Origin: an uncultured Candidatus Competibacteraceae bacterium
Lineage (GTDB): Bacteria; Pseudomonadota; Gammaproteobacteria; Competibacterales; Competibacteraceae
Assembly: GCA_903879705.1 (NCBI GenBank)
Contig: CAIRMO010000071.1
Span: 1 to 38,737, forward strand
Reading direction: 5' to 3'
Length of the DNA stretch: 38,737 nt
Of this stretch, positions 31,775-33,807 are shown one piece after another (within the stretch, counting starts at the first letter, position 1; each line of letters begins with the position of its first letter). Position numbers and translations under genes: made by a program. Under the pieces are notes generated by a model. That model saw only the letters and a list, made by a program, of their open reading frames with translations, was not told where the DNA came from and made no database searches.

Positions 31775-31903
31775 CGGGTCACTCCTTCTGGGTCATTCAG
31801 GTTGGAGACGGCGGGAAATCCCCCGCTTGAGCGTGGAATCTCCGCAACTTTCGCGATTGTAGCAAGCCGCCGCCCTGAATTATTGCTCTTTAACGCCAAG
31901 CCA

Positions 31904-32060
31904 GATCCATCAACGAAAGCCGCCGGGCTGGCGGTGTTAGCCTGTGGAGAGACTGTAAATCCTGTTTCCGCGAAAGTGGACATAGGCAGGACTCAGTAAA
32001 GCAGGAGGCCCTGATAGTGATGTCAGGAATCCCCGTCCTTTAGGGCGGGGAGGATGTCAA
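31904..32060 (+). mobile_element. Solo IS200/IS605-type right end with tnpB 3' codons, copy A
   Basis: The first 96 nt (to the TAA at 31997-31999) read as the last 31 codons of a TnpB-like protein (DPSTKAAGLAVLACGETVNP and onward). They are followed by a structured tail, GGAATCCCCG...CGGGGAGGATGTCAA, with a hairpin at 32031-32050. This is the usual layout of the tnpB 3' end plus right end in IS605-group elements, where the TnpB guide RNA arises. The rest of the element is missing. The end at 32060 lies inside the WS/DGAT gene, supplying its last ~12 codons. Copy B shares about 90% identity over most of the length. Confidence 0.8.
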
Positions 32061-33486
32061 GCTCCCAGGGACTCATCAGGGTGATGAGTAACAGCTTTTC
32101 AAACTCGCCAGCGAACCGCCCGATAATCGCTTCCGGGTCGGCGACCAGCTTCTGATCAGCGACCAGCCCGAAATGCACCCGGTTGTTATAGCTGAGAATA
32201 CTGACGCCTATGCCGATCTGCCCGGACTGCGGCACCCAAAACATCATCTCGGCCATCCGCGCCCCGCCCAGATAAATCGGTCCACTCGGACCCGGGACGT
32301 TGGTCATCACCGCCGAGGCTTTCTTACTCAGCATCTCCAGCAATGATTGCTGTATCCGGTTTGGCCCCATCCCGGCGGCCCCGAGCAGTCCTAGCGCGAG
32401 GATCGGCTGAAATGATTCTTTCAACTCGTTCATCCGTTGCCGCACTTCGTAGACCCGCTCCAGCGGGTTAGCGATGCCGACCGGCAGGGTCAGAAATACC
32501 AATCCGAAGTAATTGCCGAGCTGAGCGGCTTTCTCCTGCGAGCGCAGATTGACCGGGATCACCGCTCGCACCTGCAACTCGGCAGGAACTGGATCGCCCT
32601 GCTCGACCAGATAGTCACGCAGCGCTCCCGCTACCGTCGCCAGCAGCACGTCGTTAACCGATCCACCGAGCGCCCTGCCGATGGTCTTGACCTGATCCAA
32701 GGGCAGCGGCTCGGCCCAAGCGACCCGCTTGGAGACGCCCAGATCGCCCTTGAAGCGGGTTCTGGAATCATCGTTCATGAGGGCGAGACGGATAATTTCA
32801 GCCGTCAGCCGGACCCCGGTGCGGGCATAGTCCAACGCATGAGTCGGATGCTTGAACATATCCGCCCCTTCTCCGATCAGCCCCCGGCCCAGCTTGAGAG
32901 TGGTCTGCACCGCCTTGTCCACCGGATTGAAAAACCGCCGAAAAATACCGGCTTCCTCCTCAGCCCGTTTAACTTCGGCCTCGGGCGTAGGCGCGACACC
33001 GGGGGCAGGATCGGTCAGTGCCAGCAGAACGTGAATCAGGGCGATGCCGTCGGCATAGCTGTGGTGAATCCGCAGAATGATGGCGCTGCCGCCCTGGTAG
33101 TCTTCGACCAGATGGAATTGCCACATTGGTTTTGAGAAATCCAGCGGGGTACTCATCAGATCGCTGGCCAAATGTTGCAATTCAGCCTTGTCGGCCCGGC
33201 CCGGCAAGGCAGTACGCAGCACATGGCGGTTAATGTCGAAGTACGGATCGGTTTCCCAGAATGCGCCGGCAGCTTTTTGCGCCGCCCGTTGAGTAAAGCG
33301 CCGATATTTCAGGAATCGGGTCTCGACAACCTCGCGCAGCCGCTCATACCCCAATCGCTCGGCGAAAATCATAACCCCGGTAATCATCATCAGATTGGTC
33401 GGGCGTTCCATCCGCAGCCAAGCGGTGTCAATCCCGGAGATGCGCTCGCTGTCTTTGTTTTTGGGCATGAGGAAATCCAGAATCAT
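32023..33486 (-). CDS. Wax ester synthase/diacylglycerol acyltransferase (WS/DGAT)
   Basis: A 487-residue bifunctional acyltransferase that esterifies fatty alcohols or diacylglycerol with acyl-CoA to make storage lipid at the inner membrane. The catalytic motif HHSYADG (HHxxxDG) is at about 141-147. The C-terminal domain has GSVNDVLLATVAGALRDYL, RAVIPVNLRS and VMTNVPGPSGPIYLGGARM, all typical. The frame ends with LDILPALKDGDS, encoded by the transposon right end 31904-32060 rather than native sequence, so the original C-terminus was altered near SPWE. The ATG at 33486 has GGAAAA upstream; an in-frame ATG at 33468 is an alternative. It is divergent from the acyl-CoA-binding-protein gene. Confidence 0.9.
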   Translation of the reverse strand: MILDFLMPKNKDSERISGIDTAWLRMERPTNLMMITGVMIFAERLGYERLREVVETRFLKYRRFTQRAAQKAAGAFWETDPYFDINRHVLRTALPGRADKAELQHLASDLMSTPLDFSKPMWQFHLVEDYQGGSAIILRIHHSYADGIALIHVLLALTDPAPGVAPTPEAEVKRAEEEAGIFRRFFNPVDKAVQTTLKLGRGLIGEGADMFKHPTHALDYARTGVRLTAEIIRLALMNDDSRTRFKGDLGVSKRVAWAEPLPLDQVKTIGRALGGSVNDVLLATVAGALRDYLVEQGDPVPAELQVRAVIPVNLRSQEKAAQLGNYFGLVFLTLPVGIANPLERVYEVRQRMNELKESFQPILALGLLGAAGMGPNRIQQSLLEMLSKKASAVMTNVPGPSGPIYLGGARMAEMMFWVPQSGQIGIGVSILSYNNRVHFGLVADQKLVADPEAIIGRFAGEFEKLLLITLMSPWELDILPALKDGDS

Positions 33487-33502
33487 CTGGATTTTCCGCG
33501 AG

Positions 33503-33530
33503 AAACCCCGACATTGATGCCGGGGAGGGA
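33503..33530 (+). repeat. Hairpin resembling an IS200/IS605-type right-end stem
   Basis: GAAACCCCG...CGGGGAGGG, a near-perfect palindrome (stem 33506-33510 with 33521-33525 and an inner CAT/ATG), has the same GAA(A/T)CCCCG-CGGGGAGG architecture as the ends at 32060 and 33807. The TGTCAA terminus is not present. It lies 17 nt upstream of the WS/DGAT ATG. Confidence 0.5.
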
Positions 33531-33627
33531 TAGCGGACGGCGCGGCAGTTCCCCTCGTGGGGACTGTTTAAGCGCCGCTCTTTTCGGTAAAATCTCCCAC
33601 ATCAGATCGTGATAATCAAGCGATCCG

Positions 33628-33807
33628 GATCCATCAACGAAGGCCGTCGGGCTGGCGGTGTTAGCCTGTGGAGAGACTGTAAATCCTGTTTCCGCGAAAG
33701 TGGGCATAGGGAGGACTCGGTGAAGCAGGAAACCCGGATAGTGATGTCAGGAATCCCCGTCCCCCGCATTCGCGAGGGCAGGCCTTTTAGGGCGGGGAGG
33801 ATGTCAA
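33628..33807 (+). mobile_element. Solo IS200/IS605-type right end with tnpB 3' codons, copy B
   Basis: Homologous to copy A from the GATCCATCAACG codons through the TGTCAA terminus, in the same orientation. The tnpB-like frame ends with a TGA about 95 nt in. The terminal hairpin (33755-33797) is 23 nt longer than in copy A because of an extra internal segment containing CGCATTCGCGAGGG. It ends 62 nt upstream of the acyl-CoA-binding-protein ATG and so sits in the divergent promoter region shared with WS/DGAT. No transposase, full tnpB or left end is found beside it. Confidence 0.8.

Follow-up and report, generated by a model that had tools for sequence, protein, structure and literature searches.

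IS200/IS605 elements move as single-stranded circles and insert 3' of a short motif (PMC8612924). The reRNA of ISDra2 is ~150 nt long, spans the 3' end of tnpB and the right end (RE) of the element and takes its guide from the right flank; the target motif lies at the left (PMC8612924). A PATE-like element of ~271 nt in Halanaerobium hydrogeniformans has a left end (LE) of 28 nt and no tnpA, and carries the last 58 nt of tnpB together with the whole 160-nt RE (PMC7290912). RAGATH-18 RNAs lie next to IS607 TnpBs in 64% of cases (10,258/16,029), so others do not (PMC11061315). Our literature search found no paper joining TnpB, reRNA and MITE and none on an IS605 transposase in Competibacter; PMC12558985 gave nothing for MITE, PATE, solo and similar terms.

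The DNA analyzed here (the window, 38,737 nt) is contig C71 of a Competibacteraceae genome of 3.62 Mb in 148 contigs (G000). A preliminary description had noted two solo TnpB-type right ends, A and B, around a wax-ester synthase (WS/DGAT) gene and had suggested that they might be inert scars, MITE-like elements moved in trans or sources of guide-like RNAs. As the ISDra2 reRNA module and the Halanaerobium PATE-like anatomy have already been described in the texts cited above, A and B belong to a known kind. What appears to be new is the spread over genera and the apparent retention of RNA structure without tnpB. We consider it very probable that B is a PATE/MITE-like IS200/IS605 derivative of a TnpB-only parent and A its left-truncated kin, which would have been mobilized in trans, undergone later recombination or deletion and kept a putative guide-RNA scaffold.

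Results

Copy A (31904-32060) and the right part of B (33628-33807) are true repeats, both on the + strand and both ending in TGTCAA, with 93% identity in their first 135 nt and 100% in the final 22 nt (E 2.2e-53 for B against A in a search of the whole genome). As had been stated, the contig of the window lacks any tnpA or tnpB family match. The 31-34 final tnpB-like codons that had been counted have to be corrected to 27 codons plus stop in each copy (KAAGLAVLACGETVNPVSAKVDIGRTQ and KAVGLAVLACGETVNPVSAKVGIGRTR), located by tblastn and translation at 31916-31999 in A and 33640-33723 in B (both +) and 84-89% identical to residues 353-371 of the TnpB of the full element L086. In A, which was delimited by repeat match and tblastn, the tnpB remnant is followed by the right-end hairpin (32031-32050, +) and then the AGGATGTCAA end, a tip that is common to the IS605 elements on contigs C8 and C69 of the same genome. 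The region 31910-32060 (+) of A would be a putative TnpB guide-RNA (omegaRNA/reRNA) scaffold, as suggested by its fold, by covariation and by a sub-threshold Rfam match, and the flank from 32061 would then be its guide.

The term 'solo right end' did not hold for B. The 142 nt to the left of its right part are also present at C4 with 90% identity, and B's left end matches two full-length elements: 33483-33536 is 92.6% identical over 54 nt to G030:C41 (L086/L229), and 33483-33577 is 90.5% identical over 95 nt to G038:C47 (L230). Because this stretch matches the left ends of full-length elements, B is an element of 321 nt without a gene (33487-33807, +). Its left end (33487-33536, +) contains a hairpin at 33506-33525 and is followed by a second hairpin (33539-33576, +; boundaries set by eye) with a T run after it, which recurs in tnpB-free copies and, upstream of tnpB, in the full element at G038:C47. 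The right part of B holds the tnpB remnant, the putative RNA scaffold and the right end. For A, a search for a left end at its locus found none.

Both parental candidates came from a search across the family (39 genomes, 22 with matches) that led to G038, G009 and G030. G030:C41 is a full parent, with a left end, a TnpB of 371 aa carrying the Pfam domains Cas12f1-like_TNB, OrfB_IS605 and HTH_OrfB_IS605, and a right end. The second, G038:C47, has a left end, a TnpB that is 86% identical to that of G030:C41, and a right end that is truncated where the contig stops. The fetched stretches around the two parents gave no match to the C69 TnpA. B, C4 (43372-43668) and G038:C252 can be aligned end to end, and tnpB is deleted at about the same place in each. 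B differs from the other two in the ~20 nt that directly precede the retained tnpB codons, and GATCCATCAACGAA is a stretch common to A and B that is missing from C4 and G038:C252. B, C4 and G038:C252 thus carry the LE and RE of a fuller relative, with no transposase gene and no tnpB past its last codons between the ends, and several dispersed copies exist, as expected of PATE/MITE-like elements; A has no LE. The 'MITE-like' option of the preliminary description fits B, C4 and the relatives.

A further peculiarity of B is a 23-nt palindrome (33763-33785, +) inserted into its end-hairpin loop. Twenty bases of this stretch gave 10 matches in G000 and 0 in the control. Seven of these copies were inspected in their surroundings (C81, C10 and C135 were left out) and lie within IS605-type end hairpins in the same orientation, on C16, C34 (twice), C55, C71, C77 and C141. 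For this reason the reading of the palindrome as a REP insertion is weakened.

Besides A and B, the latter counted in two rows, the 16 match rows of the G000 search include C4:43524-43668 at 93% and a partial match on C34; the others are shorter right-end tips. The genome thus holds shorter remnants and one sister of B, C4:43372-43668, which has both ends. IS605 elements with the same right-end tip were present on C8 and C69; each encodes a divergent TnpB along with a Y1 TnpA (Pfam was run for C69). With full elements sharing the ends in relatives and IS605 elements sharing the tip in the genome itself, the proposed TnpB/IS605 origin is supported; neither a non-TnpB repeat nor the absence of any IS605 element with this end, the two outcomes named as speaking against it, was what we found. 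A derivation of A and B from G000's own C8 and C69 elements is rejected for the upstream part, as only the last ~45-54 nt match. The IS605 elements of G000 are inserted at TTAC, not TCAT. The full element on C69 (L026, 837-2423) interrupts a response-regulator-like gene, whose TTAC is joined in frame to the right flank when read by eye. Besides the two IS605 TnpAs, weaker Y1_Tnp matches were seen on C128, C86 and at C69:13453, one of them with an internal stop. Left-end-like copies after TCAT occur on C22, C32, C82, C108 and at C55:55232; a motif search of the ~1.5 kb downstream of these left ends found no right-end tip.

The distribution of such elements among relatives was assessed with a covariance model built from 10 copies, which gave 94 rows, from 21 of the 39 genomes. 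We examined 47 of the 94, chiefly those with high scores; several rows at contig edges and the majority of low scorers were not included. A match to a left end, defined as one that starts no later than position 10 of a left-end query, lies 298-394 nt from the end of the RE at 23 of the 47 loci, with no tnpB past its final codons; three of these are of type 1 (the B/C4 kind), 16 of type 2 and four of other kinds. A long tnpB was found at seven loci, and the remaining 17 had no found LE, were cut by contig ends or were unclear. As the loci were retrieved with a model of the RNA region, the presence of that region in them is not independent evidence. The both-ended type-1 elements are B and C4 in G000 plus one in relatives, so the type is present in two genera. 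All 16 of type 2 are from relatives (G009, G016/G017, G030 and G035/G038) and carry four genus labels. Among the matches listed for 40 genomes, G001 has a 76% match to a type-2 element over nearly its full length; against plasmids, the best listed match covers 20% of the query. No tnpB parent of the type-2 elements was found at the 47 examined loci.

We also observed a separate element of 265 nt with a similar RNA-like core, which has GG at its ends and no IS605-type end hairpin. Copies are L309/L310 (G000 C54:44730-44871 and C138:17225-17380), L311, L312, L313, L320 and L321. In G016, four of five compared copies are identical and one is 99.6% identical; further copies, at 83-89%, occur in G000 and G017 (two in each) as well as in G002 and G038. 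Over its last 55 nt the element is 80% identical to the G016 locus L323, where a broken tnpB accompanies a serine recombinase (Pfam Resolvase), and because of this match the element looks like an IS607-type non-autonomous element.

Directly to the left of B lies TCAT (33483-33486, +), the complement of the ATGA at the WS/DGAT start. Of 26 loci with an LE, which include the C69 IS605 element at TTAC, 18 have TCAT directly before the left end. The complementary ATG starts a frame of at least 150 codons at 13 of the 18 TCAT loci (two of these frames leave the fetched piece) and not at the other five, compared with 30/148, 24/149 and 15/136 background TCAT sites (69/433 in total). The binomial P of this excess is 1.6e-7 if the 18 loci are independent, an assumption that related copies do not satisfy. 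In the case of B, this ATG belongs to WS/DGAT, and the G001 and G002 proteins align with it from residue 1. On the right side, the base homologous to the first one after B's right end is preceded by TTAT in both G001 and G002. The preceding motif is mostly TCAT at the left ends and TTAT at the counterpart of B's right end in two relatives, and B's two flanks come from different sites.

The homologue of B's right flank starts 143 nt (G002) or 142 nt (G001) past the complement of the WS/DGAT start codon; B occupies the place of these 142-143 nt upstream of WS/DGAT, and since they are present in relatives and missing in the window, B's flanks derive from two different sites. By eye, the relatives that were read share a conserved block upstream of WS/DGAT, and this block is absent from the window. 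The different origin of B's flanks would be explained if two copies had recombined or if DNA had been deleted.

Copy A lies at the other end of the same gene. The WS/DGAT frame of the window (32023-33486, -) encodes about 475 native residues followed by ~12 codons (LDILPALKDGDS) from the complement of A, and its native C-terminal codons are lost. The relatives' proteins (L094, L096, L098, L100 and L102) measure 494-497 aa in four of five cases and 480 aa in one, and by this comparison A replaces the last ~20 codons. While A's right end adjoins WS/DGAT coding DNA, homology of its left flank to the region upstream of ETF-QO in G002 stops at 31900. As WS/DGAT and ETF-QO lie on different contigs in G002, A probably marks a rearrangement.

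We then considered the retained 3' region as RNA. Folded as RNA, A (31904-32060) reaches a z of -4.63; B as single-stranded DNA folds no better than shuffles (z -0.65). In the 10 copies, 43 pairs are formed in 97.4% of cells, and covariation is 0.202 versus 0.111 in shuffled (0/500) and 0.028-0.067 in slid alignments; pairs changed on both sides (5 versus 4.2 in shuffles, 136/500) and further pair types (20 versus 18.6, 114/500) are not in excess. In 17 type-2 copies, 98.2% are paired, with a covariation of 0.154 versus 0.105 shuffled (0/500); only 9/500 shuffles matched the number of pairs changed on both sides, and further pair types showed no excess (381/500).

In a less circular test, structures without pseudoknots were taken from other rows. 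The terminal hairpin is a DNA feature for recognition by TnpA and was for that reason omitted. Type 1 (A, B, C4, G038:C252 and G038:C294), tested on the structure of five other rows, is 93.1% paired versus 34-46% when slid. Pair-breaking changes numbered 4 versus 8.6 expected in type 1 (P 0.02) and 7 versus 14.3 in type 2a (P 0.008). The difference was not significant in type 2b (2 versus 4.5, P 0.11) or in the five parent-like rows that supplied the type-1 structure (3 versus 5.0, P 0.16). In this group G030:C41 is the only row with a full tnpB; two others leave their contigs and the last two retain 25-45 codons. Of the type-2b pairs, type 2a can form 66%, against 61 and 54% after a slide of one column, a weak transfer of structure. 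The signal was thus weaker, but still there, after the switch from same-row to other-row structures. Rfam searches of A and B reached no curated RNA family at its gathering score: sot0042 (27.1 bits, E 1.5e-4, gathering score 88) and HgcC (20.8 bits, gathering score 50) for A and RAGATH-18 (27.5 bits, gathering score 44.9) for B all lie among chance matches. As DNA, the putative scaffold spans the tnpB 3' end and the RE up to the end of the element, as a TnpB guide RNA should, and its RNA structure is conserved, with some measures not above shuffles.

The suggestion of inert scars fits A, and B in part, because both are at deletion junctions. According to this reading, A and B are decaying and immobile, have no RNA function and inherited their structure from the parent; it is a serious possibility, towards which we do not lean. 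A's lack of a left end agrees with it, as do the two broken pairs found in each of B and C4 (on a structure derived from the same rows, and hence circular). Near A and B, one promoter-like site was found against a shuffle mean of 0.9, no excess, and no close TnpB of the parental type was found in G000, which would also suit inert remnants. Both-ended elements of B's type in two genera and type-2 elements under four genus labels argue against it, however, and so does the depletion of pair-breaking changes in types 1 and 2a, which persists without the terminal hairpin.

Selection might instead act on DNA only, with the RE hairpin and the cleavage end maintained for TnpA and the upstream ~100 nt carried as passengers. 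The part that A has in common with the IS605 elements is indeed the last ~45-54 nt, and copies reduced to the tip exist in the same genome (C101, C39, C126 and C79). Pair-breaking changes are nevertheless depleted upstream of the end hairpin in types 1 and 2a, and we find this reading rather doubtful. The number of copies with the long module is no argument against it, because the search that retrieved them used a model of this same module.

Another functional reading would make A and B stand-alone guide-RNA genes, whose RNA would serve a TnpB in trans and help to hold the element at its site. The kept module fits the published reRNA, with tnpB 3' end, RE and flank-derived guide (PMC8612924). 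Covariation points the same way, as do the separate IS607-like elements of the same family that keep a similar RNA-like core. The genome offers no cognate TnpB, however: the parental TnpB gave four matches in G000, to C8 and C69 (36-37% identity, spanning part of the protein only), to a fragment on C104 (38%) and to a remnant on C4, and the ends of the C8 and C69 elements share with A the final ~45-54 nt alone. We regard this reading as unlikely. Insertion next to ATGA is a pointer to HEARO/IscB, and TCAT is ATGA on the other strand, but the codons match TnpB and no HEARO was among the Rfam matches even at permissive E-values, so that an RNA of this type is rejected as having next to no chance.

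Discussion

Sequence comparison establishes the parent/derivative anatomy and the shared ends, shows that the type is present in two genera and reveals the deletion junctions. We propose that an IS1341-type parent lost most of tnpB, leaving the LE, the second hairpin, the last 27 codons and the RE, as in B, and that A would be an element of B's type truncated at its left. Such elements were probably moved in trans: Y1 TnpA genes are present in the genome, and the IS605 elements of G000, which share the RE hairpin and the TCAA end, may have supplied the enzyme. Insertion would have taken place 3' of TCAT- or TTAT-like sites, and neighbouring DNA would have been lost through later recombination; the simplest course is an exchange between two direct copies in the case of B and a one-sided deletion in that of A. 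With less confidence, we suggest that the retained ~150-nt RE region could still form an RNA scaffold, with the flank after TCAA as its guide, which would be usable only where a compatible TnpB is present. A guide-like RNA from A or B, the third option of the preliminary description, may draw indirect support from RNA structure and is weakened by the absent parental TnpB and by chance-level promoters. Against the PATE/MITE-like reading as a whole we count the lack of a close parental TnpB, the chance-level promoters, the Rfam scores below gathering, the flank mismatch, the missing LE of A, the TTAC sites of the IS605 elements, the two covariation measures that do not exceed shuffles, the two test sets short of significance, the weak transfer between types 2a and 2b and the single full tnpB among the rows that gave the type-1 structure.

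A wider view would join the IS605-type elements (types 1 and 2) and the 265-nt IS607-like elements of this bacterial family as TnpB scaffolds that are mobile without their nuclease, with a selected scaffold, a site-derived guide and a TnpB acting in trans; we put this forward as a speculation that will probably not hold. Non-autonomous elements would exploit the RNA-guided nucleases of others if their RNA is made and is used in trans. A multi-genus set of tnpB-free copies is useful, as it lets the RNA scaffold be tested apart from the gene. With left ends at start codons (TCAT being ATGA reversed) and two deletion junctions, these elements may also reshape 5' regions and gene ends.

Among described systems, the IS1341-type TnpB-only elements (PMC9956272) resemble the parents G030:C41 and G038:C47 in having tnpB between LE and RE; the copies in the window carry no gene. 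The RAGATH-18/IS607 reRNA (PMC11061315) is linked to B by a below-threshold match, and B differs from it by its IS605-type hairpin ends. With the ISDra2 reRNA (PMC8612924), A and B share a like module, but most of tnpB is deleted in them and the RNA is putative here. The Halanaerobium PATE-like element (PMC7290912) has the same anatomy as B. That element is one copy in one genome, whereas the elements presented here occur in several genera, possess a second hairpin and had their RNA structure tested.
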